A DNA stretch of 56,828 bases from Chloroflexota bacterium (GCA_029778615.1 JAKOPZ010000308.1:1-56828); one strand, 5' to 3'; counted from the stretch's first letter, positions 1 to 14,874 are shown. The notes: a model not told the origin generated them from the letters alone. Made by a program: numbers and translations.

Positions 1-3000
1 AACCACAACTAAAAGTTGGTCTGTCAAGCTGCGCTCATCTCTCCGTGGTCTAAACAAGTCATGGTCTGGCACTCTGTTGCGAAACGCGGTTCGCTGTGGC
101 TCTTGATAACTCAAGAAATAATTCTGTTCGGCATAATCGGGAAAAATACTTGCGACGGTGGCATTTGGTGGCAGCGTGATGTCAAGCACGGGAAGCATTG
201 TGCCACAATCTCCAAAATCGCGATAGTTCTCCCAACTCGTGCGAATGGTATTGTTCCCGCCGAAATGTTCGATGAGGTAAAAGGGAAATAGGACAGAATA
301 TGGAATCCCTGTCCCACCCAAGATGGGGCGTGTATCCATGTGTGCCCATGCTTCGTTCAGATGAGCAGTGATAAAGTCTGTATAGCTTGTGTCCACTCCA
401 ATCGCTTCATGCTGCGCCCACTGCGCTGTCGCCTCCATCCACCAGCGCAAGTCTTCGTTGTCGTACCAAGCCCACGTTACCTGCAATTCGTCAAATTGCG
501 GGCATGCTTCTTGGTACACCCACTGTGCAGCATGAAAGAATTCGTGTGCGGCAAGTGGTTGCCCATCTGCCCGAAATTCATTTGTTATAAAAGTATATTG
601 TGGTGAGAAGGTGATTCCGCCTCCCAACGCACCCATAGGTACAACATAGACTTGATAGGGTAGTTCGGTTGGGAGTTGATACCCCATTGCTTGATACTGA
701 TAAAAGGCAGCCTCGAGCCCACTCCCAATGTTGGCCAAATACTCAACGGAACTCCCACCTGCAATGCGGCAATCAAACCGATCTTGATTGAAATTTGCCT
801 GATACCAGATGACAAAATGGGTCAGCACAATTTGCGTATCTAGATCGCACGGTCCTATCAGAACGCGAGGAATTCCACCCGCATTCGGCGTCACGGTTGG
901 CGTAATCGTCGGCGTTGGCGAATGCGTTGAGGTCGGTGTGCTCGTCGGAGTTACCGTCGCGGTGGGCGTTGCTGTTGGTATGGCTGTGCCAAGAGTGGAG
1001 TAATAGATCTGCCCACTTGCGCCTTCCCATACCAAATGCCCCTGTTGCGAGGCGTCCACAATCAGCGAACCCCACCGCATACTAATGCCGGTCATATCTG
1101 AAGAAAAGGTTTGCGGATTGCCCCAGGTGCCATCATTATGGGCGAGGCGCAATTCGTACGGTGTCGCGTAAAAATGATTCCATCCAAGATACACATTGTT
1201 CACCCCGCCCGCGCCAACAACCGGAACGGGCGAGAAATCACCGCCTGACGACTCTTGGTCAAACACGGTGACGTCACTCCAACCACCGCTTTGCAGATTG
1301 GCGCGATGCAAAATGCCATAGCCACTCACAAGTGGAGGTCCCTGCCAAGCCAGATGCGCATTCCCAGTTGTATCAAAAGTGAGTGAAGGACTATTCGCGT
1401 CCGCACTTGCAATTTCGGCTCCGCTCCAGCCCCCTTCCGCGCAATTCCCGTTCGCCGCAGTCAGCGAACATTCTTGATATTTCAATTCCGCACAGTGTTC
1501 GCCATTGCCATCACATTCGAGCGCGATGTAGCCGACTCCGACGTAGGGAACACTCGCTCTGGACGTTCCGCTGGTCAACTCCAAATACGCAGAGGTTGAA
1601 AACAATTCGAGCGCGCCGCCAAACACCCCTGTTGCGGCATCGCCTTGTGCGTACATCACGCGCGAGGTACTGGTGAACTCGTCAACCTGATCTACTTGAA
1701 CCCAAGTGGCATGAATCTGATTCGTCCCATTCCCTTGCGTCGCGCCGATGCTTCCATTATAGCCAAAGCTGCCCGATGCGAGCGACTGCGGCGAGCCCCA
1801 ATTCACGCTCGTACCCGTCTCATCCCATGTGCCTAGCACATAACGAATTTCGAGAGTATTCCCGACACTCTCTTCCCATACCAAATGGACCGCGCCCGCG
1901 CTGTCTGTCGCAAGCGAAGGCAGCCACGATGCACTGGAGGTAAAGCCGATATGCGGGGCTGAACTCCATGTACTGCTACCCACCGATTTGGTTCGCATCC
2001 ATAGCCCAGCCGGTGCGCCGTCAGAATACCACACCACTGTCACATTCCCCACATCATCAACGGCGACGGCAGGAACTTGGGACCATCCCAAGCCATCCGC
2101 GAGATTTGCAAAACTACCTCCAGGATCATTATGGGATTCTTGCTCGGGCAAAGAGAGGCGCGCGGGATCTCCTTCTTTCACCAGATTGAGGCGAATGGCT
2201 TGGGCTTGAGACTTGGCATTGATTCGTACCAATCCATCCATTATTGCCCCCGGTTTGAAATCCCCTTTTTCTGCAAGCCCTTTCGTCGAGCGCAAGTAAC
2301 TTTTCGCCGTCACCCGAATCCTGAGCATCCCGCGCGCAGTCTTGACAATTAGGCGTGACTTGTCCACACGTTGAATAACGCCGCGAATGTGATAGATGCC
2401 TTTGGTCAAAGCGCGCGGCGGAGCAACCGCAGAAGATTTTTTGGGCGTCTGTGTTGGAACCGGTGTTGCGGTTCGCGTGTTCTTGCGCGAACGCGGCGTC
2501 GCGTTATTTTCTTGTTGTGGCGCAGGCACCGTACCGGTGATTTGTCTCGGGGTTAGGTAATCTGCAATCGTTTGTCGCGTTTCGGGTGACAATTGCTCCC
2601 AATCTTTGAGCGCATACAAGAGCGCCGCTGTACCTTCATCAGGAATGAGTGTTGTAGAATAGTACTCCGAAGGCAGCTGTGGGTCGCCAAAGAGCGCATA
2701 CACTTTGTACAGCGTAGCCGTATCGAGCGTGAGCGCGCTTTCTGCCACCGCCTGTTCGATCAATGTGAAACTATCCGGAGGTGTCGGTATCACGGTCGCG
2801 GTATCCGTAGGCGTCGCGGTAAAGCTTGGAGTAACTGTTGTTGTTTCTGTTGGTGTATCCGTCGCCGTTTCCGTTGCCACTTCTGTTGGCGTTGGCGTTG
2901 CCGTAGCAACATTACCCCCATCGCGAAACGCGACATAGAAATACGTACAAGGACCCGAACACCCATTCCCCGAATTAACCAGCGTATCCGTACCTACCTG

Positions 3001-3918
3001 AAATCCGTCGGCGTTCAATTGCTGAATCGAATCGCCGAGCGGGTCATTCCCGATAAATTCCAACGCCGCATCTCCCGTCACAGCGGCAGAGCGATGCAGG
3101 GGGCGGCTCGCGCTCCCGCCCTCCTTACGCACCAAAACCCAATCGGGCTGAAATCCGACGCCCGTGATATTTCGATTATCCACCGGATTCCCACCCGTGC
3201 TGTTGCCCAGATACGACCCAACCTTGATACTGCCCGCCGTATTTTTCCACGCGAGATAGTGATACAGCGTTCCATTGCGATTCACATTCGCATTGCCGCC
3301 CACCTTGAACCCATCTCCATTCAATGCTGTAATGCCGTGCGCGCCTTGCTGGTTGCCGTTAAAAAAATAACTGGTCGTTCCGCTTGTCGCAGAAGAGCGC
3401 TGCAGGGGATTGTGTCCGCCTTGTGACGACAACACAATCACATAATCCGGGGCAAATCCAACGCCGCTGACGGTTTGGGTGTCGCCATTGCCCGTCTACG
3501 TTCCGAGCGCCATTTGTCCGGGCGCGGCTTGAAATGCAATCCAGTAATAGGTATTCGGCGGAGTCGCTTTATTGACGCGCACGTTCGTTCCAAGCGTAAA
3601 ACCATCCGCATCGAGCGTTTTGATCGCGCCCGTTTGATTCGACCCACTCTCGATCTCTTTGCTCAAATCATCGGGCATCGTCGCGGTGTGAATGACGGCT
3701 TGTTCGTTGTTCGTCCCTTTGACCAAAACGACATCGGGCTGAAAGCCAATGGCGCTAATCGCGCGATTGTCAATTCCATTTCCAACATACGAACCTGTCG
3801 CGACGCGCATGTTCGCGACTTGTTCCGTGCGAGTTGAAGGAGACGACGCGTCTGCGCTTCTAAATCCAACCAATGCCAAAACGAACAATGCAAATACCAA
3901 AGAGCGCAATGTACGCAT
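1..3918 (-). pseudogene. Large secreted repeat/metalloprotease-like protein, in-frame amber stop, runs off left edge
   Basis: The reading frame starts at ATG 3918 behind a GGAGG ribosome site and stays open to base 1 (about 1,306 codons, C-terminus outside the window) except for one TAG at 3496-3498. It begins with a signal peptide. Three ~95-residue repeats follow (pattern GSYVGNG...GFQPDxVLV...LNADGFxVG), down to about 2930. Next come a T/P-rich linker, a helical and basic stretch, BNR/propeller-like segments rich in 'HLVWE'-type motifs, and a second T/P linker (about 897-1000). The last part has the zinc-protease motif HEFFH (532-546), with a WWMEATAQW stretch downstream that could give the third ligand. 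The amber codon replaces a Tyr that is present in the two sister repeats (GSY/GTY context), so it looks like a point mutation or a sequence error in an otherwise intact gene. Substrate and function are unknown. An extracellular protease-like protein is an inference from the motif. Confidence 0.75.
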
Positions 3919-4027: not shown

Positions 4028-4071
4028 TATAATGCGTTTGCATGGACCCATGCAAAGGAAATTTCCACGTG
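4028..4071 (+). promoter_or_regulatory. -10 box and start-deciding ribosome site of the CNB-phosphatase gene
   Basis: TATAAT at 4028-4033 would place the transcription start near 4040. Two starts are possible: ATG 4042, which would be almost leaderless, or GTG 4069, which has AAGGAA at 4055-4060 with an 8-nt spacer. I prefer GTG 4069 because of the ribosome site, and because the conserved cyclic-nucleotide domain begins only a few residues later. Confidence 0.45.
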
Positions 4072-5331
4072 ACCGAAACCGAGTACACCCTCTTACGCAT
4101 TCCACTGTTTCACAGCTTGCCTGAAAGTGAGATTCAGCATCTGGCGGAAGCGCTCACCATGCGCGAGGTGCCGCACGACACCGTGTTGTTTTACGAGGGC
4201 GACGCGGGACAGCATTTTTATATTGTGCGCGAAGGACAAATCGAGGTCGTCAAAAGCATCGGCACGCCCGACGAACGCGTGGTCAATGTGCGCCGTCCGG
4301 GCGAATTCGTCGGCGAGATGAGTTTGTTCAATCTTGACGGCAGACGCACCGCCAGCGTGCGGGCGCGCGGCACCGCGAAATTGTGGGAAATGACGCGTGC
4401 CGATTTCGACGCGCTGCTCGCGCGGAATCCCTATATCGCGTATGAAATGGTGCGCGTGTTGTCGAACCGCCTCACCGACGCGCACAACAACGCGATGGAA
4501 AGTTTGATTGCAAAAAATCGCGCGCTGGAACAAGCCAACACCGAACTGGCGGAAGCGTATGCGGAATTAAAAGCGGCGCAAGCGCAAATCATTGAAAAGG
4601 AAAAATTGGAACGCGAGCTGCAGCTCGCAGCGGAAATCCAAATGAGCATTCTGCCGCGCACCCTGCCCAAACTGCACGGCTTTTCCTTTGGCGCAAAAAT
4701 TGTGCCCGCGCGCGCGGTCGGCGGCGATTTGTACGATTTCATTCCGTTGAATGAGCAAGCGCTCGCCGTCGTCATCGGCGATGTAAGCGACAAGGGCGTC
4801 CCCGCCGCGATTTTCATGGCGCAAACGCACGCGCTCATTCGTTCCGAAGCGCGTCAAAATCGTTCCCCGCGCGAAACGCTGGAACGTGTGAACCAATATC
4901 TTTTGGAAATGAACGCGTCCGGATTGTTTGTGACGGTCTTGTACGGGATTCTCAATCGTCACACGCGCGAGTTTCAATACGCGCGCGCGGGACACGAACT
5001 GCCGTTGGTGCGCGAACCGCACGGCGAAATTTTCACCCCCCCCCAGGGGCAGGGCGCGCCGCTCGGCATTTTTGATTTTGTCGTATTGGATGAGGGAACG
5101 CTTTCACTGCCGCCGCACAGCACCATGCTCTTGATTACCGACGGCGTGACGGAAGCATACAATCCCGAACGCGAACAATTTGGCATGGAACGCATTCAAG
5201 CTCTGCTCGCACAAGATGTACAGGCAGACGCGCAAAAATTGTGCGACGATTTTCTGGACTCGATTGCGGCGTTTCGCGGCGACGCGCCGGTGCATGATGA
5301 TATTACGGTCGTGGCGATTCACGCCGCCTGA
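4069..5331 (+). CDS. Cyclic-nucleotide-binding domain fused to RsbU/SpoIIE-type PP2C phosphatase
   Basis: About 420 residues. The N-terminal ~120 residues form a cAMP/CRP-type binding domain (IPLFHSL...; GEFVGEMSLF; RRTASVRA phosphate cassette). A coiled-coil linker follows (about 140-185, rich in A/E/L). The C-terminal half is a SpoIIE/RsbU phosphatase with its metal-binding acidic motifs intact: AVGGDLYD, IGDVSDKG, LLITDGVTEA and the terminal DDITVVAI. The family dephosphorylates anti-sigma-factor antagonists. Here activity would be gated by a cyclic nucleotide, which is an inference from the fusion. A class III cyclase is encoded nearby (7782-9320, opposite strand), so a local cyclic-nucleotide link is possible but unproven. 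A run of nine C residues (5036-5044) lies inside the phosphatase coding region. Confidence 0.9.
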   Translation: MTETEYTLLRIPLFHSLPESEIQHLAEALTMREVPHDTVLFYEGDAGQHFYIVREGQIEVVKSIGTPDERVVNVRRPGEFVGEMSLFNLDGRRTASVRARGTAKLWEMTRADFDALLARNPYIAYEMVRVLSNRLTDAHNNAMESLIAKNRALEQANTELAEAYAELKAAQAQIIEKEKLERELQLAAEIQMSILPRTLPKLHGFSFGAKIVPARAVGGDLYDFIPLNEQALAVVIGDVSDKGVPAAIFMAQTHALIRSEARQNRSPRETLERVNQYLLEMNASGLFVTVLYGILNRHTREFQYARAGHELPLVREPHGEIFTPPQGQGAPLGIFDFVVLDEGTLSLPPHSTMLLITDGVTEAYNPEREQFGMERIQALLAQDVQADAQKLCDDFLDSIAAFRGDAPVHDDITVVAIHAA

Positions 5332-5463: not shown

Positions 5464-7785
5464 TTATGGGCACACCGAAAAGTTGAGCCAATAGTCGCGT
5501 CCGTCCGATTGGAAAAAGGGCACCTGCGCTTTTTGTTGGTCAACGAAAACCGCTTTTGCGAGAAAGGGCGTGCATTGCCCGATTTGGCGCAGCTCGTAAC
5601 GCGCGCCGGCAAGTTCCGTTTGTCCTTCCGGAATCAATTGACGTTGACACGACGTTTGCCCGATTGACTTTTTCAAATCATTCGTGTTGTAAATCACCAC
5701 GCACCAATCGTACGTTTGCGCGCGTCCGCTGGTGTTCAGAAACTGCACGGCAAACTCCATTCCGTCGCCCGCGCGCGGCTCGGGCGGACTGACGCGTATA
5801 CTGCCAACATAGATGCCCGGCGGCGCATTGATGGTAGGAGTCGCGGCGGGGGTCGGCGTGAGCGGGATGCGCGTCGCGGTGGGCGGCGGCGGCGTTGCGG
5901 TGGCGGGTTCGAGCGTCGCGGTCGCTGGAACGGGTGTTGCGCTTGGCGGAACACTCGTGGCGGTCGGTTGAACAATCGTGATGGTCACTTGGCGCGTAAT
6001 CGTTCCACCGCAACCCGTCGCGGTTAGCGTGTACGTTTTGGTTTCGGCATTTTGCACCACTTGCGAACCGGAGAGTCCGACAATTCCTAAACCCGGTTCA
6101 ATGGAAACGTCCGAAACGCGTTGTGGATTGTCCCACTGCAAAAATACCGGGTCGTTGGGCGCAACGCTGTTTTGCGACGCGCGAAACGAAATCTCCGGCG
6201 CGCCTTGACAGGTCACGGCGGCGGCGCTCGTGCCAACTGCCGCCGCCGTCGCGCGCAAAGAGACGAGCGTAGCCGGGACCGTGACCGAACCCGTCGGCTG
6301 CGGCGCGGTCAAAATCGCTTGCGACAAATCTTGTGCCTCTTGCGCTTTTTGATTGAGTTGTTGTTGACTGCGCTGCAAGTTCAACAACAACACGCCAATA
6401 ATCAAGAGAACGCCTAACGCTGCCGCACCGATGCCAAAAAACAGCAAACGGTTGCGGCGCTGTTGTAAATAGCGCCTGCGCCAATCCAACATTGCCGGTG
6501 CGAGCACGTCATGAAAAATTTCGTACCGCGTGGGCGCGTCGAGTTGGTCGGGGGGGGGGGCAACGGGGCGCAAAATGCGAATGCCCGACGCAGACATTTT
6601 TTCCAAAACGGGCGTCAGTTGTTTTTCCTGCGTGTGTGTATATTCCGCGAGGTCGCGCGCCGTGTGCGCGATTTTGGTGCCGGAGGGTGTAACGAGATAG
6701 TGAAACATTCCCGCCGCCGCTTGGCGTTCCACTGCCGGCAACGCGCCCAGCGTTTTATCCAAATGGGTCCGCACAATGCGTTCCGCGCCGCCCAACCGCT
6801 GAAGCGTTTCAAGCCGCAGGGTATGTGACCCGTTCCGCAGTTCTTCATCCCACAGACGCGTCATCACCAATTGCAGAAACGGCGTTTCGATGCGTTCCAC
6901 ACCGGGGTCGTGTCCGTTCGCGCCGTTATCATTTTTGATTGCGCCAACGCCGGTGTCCGTGAGCGAGACGCGTCCAGTTTTCACTTGGTCGAGCACCGCG
7001 TCCACGAGCGCAGGTTCGATGCTCACTTTCATTCCCGCGTCGCCAACGGCTTTGTTGTATTGCTCAATCGGTTTAATCATCGCCTCGCGCGCGGCAGCGC
7101 GGTCGAGATGGTCAATCCGAATGTAATTGTCAAACAGCGTGGGAATGCGTCCTTCAAAACGGTCCAGTTTGGCGACGGCATCTTCGCGAATCGAAATGAC
7201 AAAATTGACGCGCGCTTCGCGGTCGGTGACCACGCGCGGAAATTCTTCGACAAAGGTGCCCGGTCCGTCTTCGTTGGGGTGATACAAAAAATAATCTTCG
7301 AATTGGTCGAGCAGAATCAACAAATCGCCGCCGACGCGTTCCACCCACATTTTTAATTGTTCGTCCAACGTTTTAAAGCGCGTCGTCTGCGGGTCTTCAA
7401 ACGTTTGCCCCAACAACGTTTCCACTTGTTCGCGCACGGCGCGCAGCAAACCCGCCACCGGGTCATCGCGCCATTGATTAAAATAAACCACCGCGAATTC
7501 CGGTGTGCCGCGTTTTGCTAAATTTTGTTTGGCGCGCTCGCGCAAAAAATGCACCACGCCCGCGCCGACGACGGAACTTTTGCCAACGCCGCTCGGTCCA
7601 TACAACAACGTAAAGCGCGACGAACGCAAATTGGCGACGATGATGGAGCGTTCCGCGTCGCGCCCAAAAAAGAGCGCGGCATCGTCGTCCGTATACGGGA
7701 CCAACCCTTTGTAGGGCGCGGGCGGAACTTTGGGCGCGCGCGCAATGGGGCTGTGCGACGGTGCGCCGTTTGGGGAATTGCTCAT
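5464..7785 (-). CDS. Membrane-anchored STAND (nSTAND1-type) ATPase with extracytoplasmic C-terminus
   Basis: 773 residues. It begins with the nSTAND1 hallmark YKGLVPYTDDDAALFFGR (about 25-42). The Walker A is GPSGVGKSS (63-71) and the Walker B is LLILLDQFED (155-164). The arginine-rich YEIFHDVLAPAMLDWRRRY block (421-439) typically ends this ATPase class. One transmembrane helix follows (about 447-470), then a short coiled stretch, an Ig-like segment, a T/P-rich spacer and a CARDB-like domain predicted outside the membrane. The start ATG overlaps the stop of the upstream cyclase-SIR2 gene (ATGA, 7782-7785), so the two are probably translationally coupled. STAND ATPases act as signal-dependent oligomerising switches; the ligand is unknown here. 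An 11-nt homopolymer (6550-6560, C tract on the coding strand, encoding PPP) lies just before the YEIFHD block and is a plausible slippage site. Confidence 0.9.
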   Translation of the reverse strand: MSNSPNGAPSHSPIARAPKVPPAPYKGLVPYTDDDAALFFGRDAERSIIVANLRSSRFTLLYGPSGVGKSSVVGAGVVHFLRERAKQNLAKRGTPEFAVVYFNQWRDDPVAGLLRAVREQVETLLGQTFEDPQTTRFKTLDEQLKMWVERVGGDLLILLDQFEDYFLYHPNEDGPGTFVEEFPRVVTDREARVNFVISIREDAVAKLDRFEGRIPTLFDNYIRIDHLDRAAAREAMIKPIEQYNKAVGDAGMKVSIEPALVDAVLDQVKTGRVSLTDTGVGAIKNDNGANGHDPGVERIETPFLQLVMTRLWDEELRNGSHTLRLETLQRLGGAERIVRTHLDKTLGALPAVERQAAAGMFHYLVTPSGTKIAHTARDLAEYTHTQEKQLTPVLEKMSASGIRILRPVAPPPDQLDAPTRYEIFHDVLAPAMLDWRRRYLQQRRNRLLFFGIGAAALGVLLIIGVLLLNLQRSQQQLNQKAQEAQDLSQAILTAPQPTGSVTVPATLVSLRATAAAVGTSAAAVTCQGAPEISFRASQNSVAPNDPVFLQWDNPQRVSDVSIEPGLGIVGLSGSQVVQNAETKTYTLTATGCGGTITRQVTITIVQPTATSVPPSATPVPATATLEPATATPPPPTATRIPLTPTPAATPTINAPPGIYVGSIRVSPPEPRAGDGMEFAVQFLNTSGRAQTYDWCVVIYNTNDLKKSIGQTSCQRQLIPEGQTELAGARYELRQIGQCTPFLAKAVFVDQQKAQVPFFQSDGRDYWLNFSVCP

Positions 7786-9320
7786 GCGCTGCTGCCCTCC
7801 GCCGTCAATCGCTCGATATGTTCTTGCAGCGCCTCTACGTAATCATCCAACGGCATTTTGATAATGTCCACGTCGCGCAAGCGCCAAAACTCCTGTTCGA
7901 GCGGCTGTGGTTTTTCGGTGAGCACATTCGTTTCGGTGACCGCCCACGCTTTGTATTTAAATTTTTGTTCGCCCCAGATGCGGTGCAAAATAACGCGCAG
8001 ATTCCAGTCGCGCAGGGAATAGCCGAGAAACAGAAAATGACTCCAGCTCATGCGTTCCAGCAGTTGCGCGGGCAGCTGTTGGGCAATGTCCTTGTGCGCG
8101 AGATATTCGATATAGTGGTCTTCGGTGATGACGTAACTGTCGCGCGCGCGATTGTTGCGGTCTACCACGCCGTGAATTTTCAAAATCGTCGTGCGTTCTT
8201 CGGGCGCGAGTCCGAGATATTTGTTGGGCTTGTCAATCGGACGCACTTTGCCGTCCGGCGCGGTGTGCAAAAATTTTCCGCGCGCGTCGCCTTCGGCAAT
8301 GTACGTGACCAAATCAAACGGCTCGTTCATTTGATGAAACGCGCGTTCCAACGCGTCGTCGTAATTGGTGGTCACGACCATCAATTCGGGCGCAATCCCG
8401 CGTTCGCGCAAAAGACGCGGCAGCATCGCAAAAAACAAATGCAGGGGCGTTGGCTGATAATCGGCGCGAAAAATTTTTCGCAGCTCGTCGTACAGCGGAC
8501 CGATGCCCGCTTTCACGGCAGCGTACTGTGAGACGCGCACCAGGTCGCGCGGTTCACTCGACGGATAATCAAACACGCGCGCGAGATGGTCGGCGAGTTC
8601 ACTGCCGATGGGCAAAAAGTCGGACTGTCCAAATTGCCACGGTTTGTCCACGGGGCGTCCGACGAGATTGACGCTCGACCCCAAAAAGGGCACGACGCGA
8701 TTTTCACTCAACGAACGCGCGACCGTTTCAAAATGCGCGTCGTACGAATCCAACACGTTGAGCGGTGGAAATTCAGCGGGCAGGTCGGGGACGACCAGTT
8801 GAAAAATATGTTCGGGAATTTTCAAACCCTTGAGCCGATGTTTGCCCAAATCCCGCAGCTGTGCGCCGCTCGGCAATGAGCCATCGGCGTTTTCGACGGT
8901 ATCGTTCGAGAGCAAAATTTCGCCGCCGTGCCCCGCCGACATGATGCGCGCGACGCGGTTCAATGTGTGACTCACCGCGTAATCGGTGCCGAGCCATTCT
9001 TCGGGACCGGTGTGGATGCCCATTCGCACGCGCAAGGGACCTGTTTCGCCCCATCGGGCATCTCGCAGAGCGCGCTGGGCATCGAGCGCGGCAAGGACAG
9101 CATCGCCAGGTGCGACGAACGCGGCTTGAAACGCATCGCCAATTTGCTTGAACGCATAACCGTCATGTTTCGCAATGGCAAAATGCAAAATCTGGTCATG
9201 CTGCGCGAGCGCGCGTTTCATCGCTTCGGGCATGCGTTCCCAAAGCGCGGTACTGCCTTCAATATCGGTAAACAAAAAGGTAACGACCCCGCTGGGCGGG
9301 ACCCCGTTCGATGAATTCAT
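7782..9320 (-). CDS. Class III nucleotidyl cyclase fused to a SIR2-like NAD-binding domain
   Basis: 512 residues. Residues 10-175 are a class III cyclase: FLFTDIEGST carries the first metal Asp (D19), QIGDAF the second (D62), and NRVAR (121-125) the transition-state Asn/Arg pair. K59 suggests ATP as substrate. Residues 205-460 are a SIR2_2-type domain: FLGSS (213-217) in the NAD pocket, TTNYDD (317-322), KIHG with H383, and FLGYSLRDWN (431-440). All expected catalytic positions look intact. SIR2 domains of this type often act as NAD hydrolases in phage defence. A cyclase on the same chain could produce or sense the signal; this combination is inferred from domains only. It is followed directly by the STAND ATPase through an ATGA overlap. 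No good ribosome site precedes ATG 9320, so the start is somewhat uncertain. Alternatively it is a housekeeping signalling protein. Confidence 0.9.
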   Translation of the reverse strand: MNSSNGVPPSGVVTFLFTDIEGSTALWERMPEAMKRALAQHDQILHFAIAKHDGYAFKQIGDAFQAAFVAPGDAVLAALDAQRALRDARWGETGPLRVRMGIHTGPEEWLGTDYAVSHTLNRVARIMSAGHGGEILLSNDTVENADGSLPSGAQLRDLGKHRLKGLKIPEHIFQLVVPDLPAEFPPLNVLDSYDAHFETVARSLSENRVVPFLGSSVNLVGRPVDKPWQFGQSDFLPIGSELADHLARVFDYPSSEPRDLVRVSQYAAVKAGIGPLYDELRKIFRADYQPTPLHLFFAMLPRLLRERGIAPELMVVTTNYDDALERAFHQMNEPFDLVTYIAEGDARGKFLHTAPDGKVRPIDKPNKYLGLAPEERTTILKIHGVVDRNNRARDSYVITEDHYIEYLAHKDIAQQLPAQLLERMSWSHFLFLGYSLRDWNLRVILHRIWGEQKFKYKAWAVTETNVLTEKPQPLEQEFWRLRDVDIIKMPLDDYVEALQEHIERLTAEGSSA

Positions 9321-9687: not shown

Positions 9688-9801
9688 AATGTGCAACTCT
9701 TTCGCGAGACAAATGTCATTTCGAGCCGTCTTTGCGAGAAATCTCATTCGCGCCTTGCGAGATTTCTCGCTCCGCTCGAAATGACAAAAGTGTTGCACAT
9801 T
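9688..9801. repeat. 114-bp inverted-repeat element inside the PqqD-like gene
   Basis: Ends AATGTGCAAC / GTTGCACATT form a perfect 10-bp terminal inverted repeat. A second inner pair, TGTCATTTCGAGC / GCTCGAAATGACA, frames a GAGAAATCTC...GAGATTTCTC core. The inner part resembles the 123-bp MITE at 9873-9995, so the two are probably related families. No target duplication is evident. Confidence 0.6.
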
Positions 9802-9872: not shown

Positions 9873-9995
9873 TTCACCTTACGCATGTCATTTCGAACCC
9901 CTCAATCCTTCGGGGTAAACTCTGTGAGAAATCTCAGTTTTTTCCACCGAGATTTCTCGCCAGACCGCTCGAAATGACAATTCTGCGTAACATGA
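9873..9995. mobile_element. 123-bp MITE, copy 1, with 8-bp target duplication
   Basis: The element runs from TTCACCTTACGCA to TGCGTAACATGA with imperfect terminal inverted repeats of ~25 bp containing TGTCATTTCGA. It is flanked by direct repeats GTTATCAA (9865-9872 and 9996-10003). A second copy at 51037-51159, in the opposite orientation, is also 123 bp long and differs at only 3 positions by my manual alignment. It has no coding capacity, so mobilisation would need a transposase elsewhere. Confidence 0.85.
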
Positions 9996-14218: not shown

Positions 14219-14243
14219 CGCCCAATGTATTCTGCGGTACGAT
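14215..14243 (+). promoter_or_regulatory. Promoter of the toxin-antitoxin pair
   Basis: TTGACG (14215-14220), a 17-nt spacer and TACGAT (14238-14243) form a good housekeeping-type promoter. It overlaps the stop codon of the preceding gene, giving the TA pair its own transcription. Confidence 0.6.
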
Positions 14244-14269
14244 GCAAAGGCATGAACGGAGTGAGTAAA

Positions 14270-14524
14270 ATGCAAAATCAAATTCCCGATTCAGAAATAC
14301 TGCTCGAACGCATTACAATTGACCCTGAAATCGCGCACGGAAAACCTGTTTTGCGCGGCATGAGATATCCGGTCGAATTGATTCTCGAATTGTTGAGCGC
14401 CGGGATGTCGCACCAAGAAATTTTGCAAGACTATGATGACCTTGAAGAGGAAGATATTTTTGCTGCCCTTGCCTATGGCGCGCGCGTGACCAAAGTCAAA
14501 CAGATCCTGCCGCTTGCACTATGA
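14270..14524 (+). CDS. DUF433 antitoxin (VapB45-like)
   Basis: 84 residues: ITIDPEIAHGKPVLRGMRYPVELILELLSAGMSHQEILQ is the DUF433 helix-turn-helix signature. The start at ATG 14270 is chosen over in-frame ATGs at 14225 and 14252 because GGAG (14258-14261) is 8 nt upstream. The stop overlaps the start of the toxin gene (ATGA, 14521-14524). DUF433 proteins are DNA-binding antitoxins paired with DUF5615 nucleases. Confidence 0.85.
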   Translation: MQNQIPDSEILLERITIDPEIAHGKPVLRGMRYPVELILELLSAGMSHQEILQDYDDLEEEDIFAALAYGARVTKVKQILPLAL

Positions 14525-14874
14525 AATTTCTCATCAATGCACACTTGCCGCGTGATCTTGTACAGCGGTTGAAAGACAAAGGGCACGACGCGATTCACAC
14601 GCGTGATTTACCACAGGCGAATCGCACCCTCGACTCTGAAATCCGCGCGATTTCACTTCGAGAGCAAAGAATTCTCATTACCATAGACGCCGACTTTTCT
14701 GATTCCTTTCGGTTGAAACGCGGACCATACAAATTGCTGCTGATAACGACAGGCAACATCACTAACAAAGAACTATTTGAGATTTTCTTTCGCAATTTTG
14801 AGCAAATTGAAACCGCATTTGAACAATATAGCTTTCTGGAGCTCAACCGCAAAGCACTGATTTTTCATGAATGA
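14521..14874 (+). CDS. DUF5615 PIN-like toxin (VapC45-like)
   Basis: 117 residues: MKFLINAHLPRDLVQRLKDKGHDA...TRDLP, RILITIDADFSD and KLLLITTGN are the conserved PIN-like motifs of DUF5615. The usual first acidic residue (LLD) is replaced here by LIN, while later acidic residues (TIDADF) remain. The predicted role is an RNase toxin neutralised by the upstream protein. It is followed at once by a terminator, so the pair forms a closed module. Confidence 0.85.
   Translation: MKFLINAHLPRDLVQRLKDKGHDAIHTRDLPQANRTLDSEIRAISLREQRILITIDADFSDSFRLKRGPYKLLLITTGNITNKELFEIFFRNFEQIETAFEQYSFLELNRKALIFHE

Follow-up and report, generated by a model that had tools for sequence, protein, structure and literature searches.

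The window analysed here is a stretch of 56,828 nt from an uncultured Chloroflexota bacterium (GCA_029778615.1 JAKOPZ010000308.1:1-56828) whose genus relatives have been deposited as Anaerolineae or Chloroflexi MAGs. Positions 5464-9320 hold two overlapping genes (Table 1): gene 1, for a chain that joins a class III cyclase to a SIR2_2 domain, and gene 2, for a membrane nSTAND1 ATPase. A sequence-only reading had proposed this two-gene module, and both open reading frames and the ATGA overlap between them were found as it described. The overlap, which is kept in five of the six genomes examined of the genus and also in CHAT and BTAD relatives, is a predicted translational coupling of the two genes. 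Proteins of the SIR2 and STAND kinds have a central place in the immunity and cell death of bacteria, and the pair represents an unusual form of their self-destruct or stress-signalling machinery.

Table 1. Positions of the gene pair, its domains and the adjoining phosphatase gene in the window
Feature	Position	Strand	Basis
Convergent CNB - SpoIIE/RsbU-type phosphatase, candidate cyclic-nucleotide reader	4042..5331	+	domain match; genus comparison
Gene 2: membrane nSTAND1 ATPase, 773 aa	5464..7785	-	ORF, Pfam, AlphaFold
C-terminal beta-sandwich, about residues 658-772, after Pro/Thr linker	5470..5814	-	AlphaFold, comparison
Extracytoplasmic Ig-like beta-sandwich, about residues 531-604	5974..6195	-	AlphaFold secondary structure
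Single predicted transmembrane helix, about residues 450-468, positive side cytosolic	6382..6438	-	hydrophobicity / charge
nSTAND1 NTPase module, residues 24-435; Walker A 63-71, DQFED 160-164	6481..7716	-	Pfam, AlphaFold, fold matches
ATGA overlap, gene 1 stop / gene 2 start	7782..7785	-	ORF coordinates; comparison of relatives
Gene 1: class III cyclase - SIR2_2 fusion, 512 aa	7782..9320	-	ORF, Pfam, AlphaFold/Foldseek
SIR2_2 NADase-like domain, about residues 190-505; N319 (TTNYD), H383 (KIHG)	7806..8753	-	Pfam, alignment, AlphaFold/Foldseek
Cyclase homology domain, about residues 10-180; D19, K58, D62, D113, N121, R125	8781..9293	-	Pfam, alignment, AlphaFold/Foldseek

Domains of the two proteins

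The N-terminal domain of the gene 1 protein matches the Guanylate_cyc profile of Pfam over residues 10-168 (E 9e-14, 51.9 bits against a cut-off of 21.9), and alignment to the trypanosome cyclase GRESAG4.3 (1fx4) assigns D19 and D62 to metal binding, K58 and D113 to the adenine and N121 and R125 to the transition state, with a one-residue insertion before N121. The profile, the two metal-binding aspartates, the Lys/Asp purine pair and the Asn/Arg transition-state pair that characterise class III nucleotide cyclases are thus all present, and the substrate predicted from K58/D113 is ATP, not UTP or CTP. The SIR2_2 profile (PF13289) matches residues 314-479 (E 6e-23, 82 bits against a curated cut-off of 24.5), with the Asn of TTNYD and the His of xHG in place. 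In the AlphaFold model of the whole chain (mean pLDDT 83, from a 22-row alignment), Foldseek matches the cyclase half to the adenylyl cyclases Ma1120 and GRESAG4 and the SIR2 half to the NADases KomC, DSR2 and ThsA. The predicted activities of the protein are synthesis of a cyclic-nucleotide signal and destruction of NAD+.

The partner protein matches nSTAND1 (PF20703) over residues 24-430 (E 3e-44, 152.8 bits against a cut-off of 27.1) and has the Walker A motif GPSGVGKSS and the Walker B motif ILLDQFED. Its AlphaFold model runs from the nSTAND module through a long helix containing the membrane segment to the Ig-like sandwich, the Pro/Thr linker and the second sandwich; the membrane helix is strongly hydrophobic, with a K/R-rich cytosolic side. 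The single membrane helix and outside domain that had been claimed are accordingly predicted here too, the outside part as two beta-sandwiches. The C-terminal outer domain is only 40-50% identical across the genus, even to the closest relative, whose nSTAND module is 90% identical, and such quick divergence is as expected for a changing sensor. Domains homologous to this beta-sandwich occur elsewhere in the window genome. Among the partner STANDs, 17 of 19 have a membrane helix of the same polarity, and their outer domains vary (Ig-like, WD40, FGE-sulfatase).

Conservation and spread of the pair

All six genomes examined of the genus possess the pair, at a syntenic locus, and dN/dS values of about 0.05-0.19 for the cyclase, SIR2 and nSTAND regions indicate strong purifying selection. 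Every one of these genomes keeps the six cyclase residues together with the Asn and His of SIR2, which upholds the earlier claim of intact catalytic residues in both domains and extends it to the genus. The fusion is not an assembly artefact, since it recurs at 80-88% SIR2 identity in the five other genomes of the genus and is found as well in one genome of another class. Nor is it unique to the locus, as it is also carried by a diverged paralogue pair and by a relative in another Chloroflexota class. A set of 400 genomes from across the phylum yielded one further cyclase-SIR2-STAND locus, that of the other-class genome (G166). A scan with a single-protein query reached close relatives only, which whole-genome searches in two further phyla partly made up for. 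Open-licence papers yielded no account of an nSTAND1 partner to a cyclase-SIR2 fusion, which is weak evidence for novelty.

The two catalytic centres have fared differently in these relatives. G166 has lost both SIR2 catalytic residues (Asn to S, His to Q), and its cyclase Lys is replaced by Arg; NADase and cyclase activities therefore need not go together. In the paralogue pair of the window genome (on contig C117) the fold of the cyclase is retained, but K58, D113 and N121 are gone, and its cyclase is probably dead; an S23/bAvd-like gene sits between its SIR2 and STAND genes. A pair of the same type is carried by genome G005, on a contig that stops inside the STAND gene. The single-chain cyclase-STAND paralogues of the window genome have lost K and N. 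Intact cyclases are not exceptional in the phylum: when 29 close relatives of the cyclase were examined in other genomes, 13 had all six residues. The G166 locus (L058 3704-7943) encodes a STAND with several membrane helices and no WD40, and a lone CNB-domain gene ends beside the STAND stop. The C117 locus (L021 4840-10904) consists of the degenerate cyclase-SIR2 gene, the S23/bAvd-like four-helix gene, an nSTAND1-TM-WD40 gene and an S8 subtilase gene, with a GAF protein encoded just upstream.

SIR2 and STAND genes are adjacent in every relative examined closely, mostly with an ATGA overlap, so the conservation as neighbours for which a check had been suggested was borne out. CHAT-SIR2 and BTAD-SIR2 versions also directly precede an nSTAND1 gene, SIR2 alone stands beside STAND-WD40 in Myxococcales, Acidimicrobiaceae and an Acidobacteria MAG, and a distant SIR2 + nSTAND1 pair is present in Nonomuraea. 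Because the N-terminal module of the SIR2 chain may be a cyclase, CHAT, BTAD or nothing, the constant unit is SIR2 + nSTAND1, with the N-terminal module exchangeable. CHAT-SIR2 + nSTAND1 pairs were seen at three loci (L045 3374-12110, L046 5152-10259 and L047), the second with an FGE-sulfatase-like outer STAND domain and the first with a DUF4062 (TIR-like NADase family) gene upstream. At L069 7097-12117, BTAD/Trans_reg_C is fused to a SIR2 domain that lacks both the catalytic Asn and His, directly before an nSTAND1-TM-WD40 gene. The suggestion of a self-contained signal/effector device is too strong for a family whose members may have CHAT, BTAD or no module in place of the cyclase, and in which the paralogue of the same genome has a degenerate one. 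The losses in the C117 type and the pairs that have no cyclase indicate that the core device can do without cyclase activity.

CNB neighbours and genomic setting

Each of the six genomes of the genus has the CNB-SpoIIE phosphatase gene next to the pair, to which it is convergent and with which it is not co-transcribed. At loci that the earlier reading had not covered, a different CNB gene lies immediately convergent to the G166 pair, and at C117-type loci an MFS-CNB gene is found about 2 kb away, with a Crp-like gene further on. With lineages rather than genomes as units, CNB genes flank all three cyclase-bearing lineages (window genus, G166, C117 type) versus none of ten cyclase-free loci (CHAT, BTAD, bare SIR2), for which Fisher's p, calculated by hand, is 1/286 in a small set whose ten controls include related loci and whose locus lengths differ. 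The window genome and G166 each have 17-18 CNB genes, and the chance of an adjacent one is about 0.5-0.7% per locus. This association favours a real cyclic-nucleotide output. Against it count the probably dead cyclase of the C117 type and a single-chain cyclase-STAND gene of G166 that also has a CNB gene nearby, encoding a CNB-protein kinase fusion (L100 2952-4664), so that CNB genes may go with this cyclase subfamily as a whole; five single-chain cyclase-STAND genes of the window genome lie on contigs that carry no CNB gene. Of the earlier proposal that the phosphatase reads a cyclic nucleotide, the conserved proximity is confirmed, and the reading itself is a prediction.

In the five sister genomes the CNB-SpoIIE gene stands beside STAS genes of the RsbV/RsbW-like partner-switch type, and a HATPase-STAS gene was confirmed in one of them (L039), with likely counterparts in others. 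The STAS, HATPase-STAS and CNB-SpoIIE genes are the components of an RsbU/V/W-type switch. The window genome has its RsbV/W-like block on another contig (C114), and the phosphatase stays beside the pair; DUF7483-type secreted-protein genes (window 1-3918) stand where the sister genomes have RsbV/W-like genes.

Enrichment in defence islands, for which a check had been suggested, was not found: the flanking genes encode COX15, Fpg, 3HCDH/ECH and thiolase, and PADLOC gave no match at the window locus beyond generic CNB similarity. The upstream flanks vary more, COX15 being near in only three of the six genomes of the genus. Mobility on phages or plasmids was likewise not borne out. Relatives of the pair were matched neither in a phage collection nor in viral contigs, and the plasmid matches were distant SIR2 proteins, an S. 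meliloti example having no STAND neighbour. Upstream of the pair, a repeated hairpin-like intergenic element (GAGATTTCTCGCTC..CGCTCGAAATGAC), probably a dispersed repeat, occurs at 9715-9790 and about 9880-9960. Elsewhere in the window, DUF433 and DUF5615 genes with an ATGA overlap (14225-14874) are probably a toxin-antitoxin pair.

Possible functions and comparison with known systems

The membrane-anchored nSTAND1 ATPase probably controls the cyclase-SIR2 protein, and the simplest view of the core is of a membrane-located NADase gated by a STAND. Our leading reading, still tentative, is of a membrane STAND switch that gates an NADase/cyclase chain with two outputs and serves in stress response or cell death. 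The nSTAND1 protein would sense a stimulus through its extracytoplasmic beta-sandwich domains, load or exchange ATP and oligomerise, and would then assemble and activate the cyclase-SIR2 chain by direct contact, as the invariant adjacency and the ATGA overlap suggest. The SIR2 domain would hydrolyse NAD+, lowering metabolism or killing the cell, and paired cyclase domains would make cAMP or another cNMP. This cNMP might be read by the adjacent CNB-SpoIIE phosphatase which, with the RsbV/RsbW-like genes of the sister genomes, could switch a stress sigma factor.

Possibly, though this is somewhat doubtful, the device is a STAND-gated NADase in which the cyclase domain serves only as an adaptor or nucleotide-binding regulator (homotypic docking) and makes no second messenger. 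The swapping of the N-terminal module with CHAT or BTAD, its absence from some relatives, the commonness of degenerate cyclases (C117 type, single-chain paralogues) and the several inactive cNMP cyclases reported in related conflict systems (Kaur et al. 2020, PMC7159879) all agree with such a role, but the retention of all six catalytic residues in all six orthologues at a dN/dS of about 0.1 and the association of CNB genes with cyclase-bearing loci speak against it. Also doubtful, and a little more so, is the full scheme of one chain with two outputs, cyclic nucleotide and NAD+ destruction, both switched by an outside-reading membrane STAND, which would give a stress-sigma response through the CNB phosphatase plus, above a threshold, metabolic shutdown. 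The characterised SIR2/STAND examples, to our knowledge, sense intracellular cues and have a single output.

It is unlikely that the pair acts in the manner of Avs5, as a SIR2/STAND system of abortive infection against phage. The resemblance of the SIR2 half to the ThsA, DSR2 and KomC NADases, the defence against phage by a STAND with SIR2 in Avs5 (PMC12931631), the fast-diverging outer STAND domain and the patchy distribution of the wider family across phyla would suit such a system; however, the window version is present throughout the genus at a conserved position among housekeeping genes and outside defence islands, relatives are missing from the phage and viral collections, and the variable part of the STAND is predicted to lie outside the cytoplasm. 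Its genus-wide conservation in a housekeeping setting points to a stress or developmental cell-fate role rather than a mobile anti-phage cassette, although both may apply. It is improbable that the SIR2 domain is an NAD+/ADP-ribose sensor or regulator and the cyclase the true output, as the loss of both SIR2 catalytic residues in G166 (cyclase-SIR2) and G728 (BTAD-SIR2) and the CNB genes alongside cyclase versions might suggest, because the window genus, the C117 type and most other members have kept the SIR2 Asn and His.

The family combines a STAND that is anchored in the membrane and has outer domains open to exchange with a SIR2 chain on which cyclase, CHAT protease and BTAD modules replace one another. 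This exchange makes the wiring of second-messenger and NADase outputs testable, and the family links NAD+-depleting conflict systems to CNB/partner-switch stress signalling.

Several known systems share components with the pair. Thoeris (ThsB TIR + SIR2-SLOG ThsA) is ruled out, since the likeness is limited to partial similarity to the ThsA SIR2 domain and neither a SLOG nor a TIR domain was found. Pycsar (PycC cyclase with a CNB-TIR or CNB-TM effector) likewise has a class III-type cyclase near a CNB protein and an NAD+-consuming domain in the system, and the CNB of the window phosphatase resembles that of PycTIR; here, in contrast, cyclase and NADase are on one chain, the CNB is fused to SpoIIE rather than TIR or TM, the cyclase chain has no PycC match at E 0.01 and K58/D113 is an adenine-type pair, so that membership is ruled out. 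Kaur et al. 2020 (PMC7159879) describe EACC1 systems in which a cNMP cyclase takes the N-terminal place of the caspase, and a parallel to this among VMAP systems; nSTAND1 is sometimes present in EACC1 systems (PMC8195603). The replacement of an N-terminal caspase-like peptidase by a cyclase, the interchangeable effector domains, the membrane-proximal setting and the occurrence in Chloroflexota and other lineages of multicellular habit are shared; the window operon, however, has only two genes, with neither a separate EACC1 nor a vWA/MoxR/VMAP gene and with flanking genes of other kinds, and SIR2 is absent from the main text of Kaur et al. 2020 (PMC7159879). Avs5, a SIR2 + STAND phage defence that forms foci at the poles and membrane (PMC12931631), also has a SIR2 NADase under STAND ATPase control, and the folds that the STAND model matched include a helical Avs5 structure. 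Avs5 is a single chain with no cyclase; in the window, two separate genes with an ATGA overlap rule out membership, the nSTAND1 protein carries a membrane helix followed by outer domains, and the SIR2 chain bears a cyclase. Although the single-chain cyclase-STAND proteins of Chloroflexota have the STAND on the cyclase chain and no SIR2 after the cyclase, they are the closest relatives of the window cyclase domain, and many have the same six catalytic residues.
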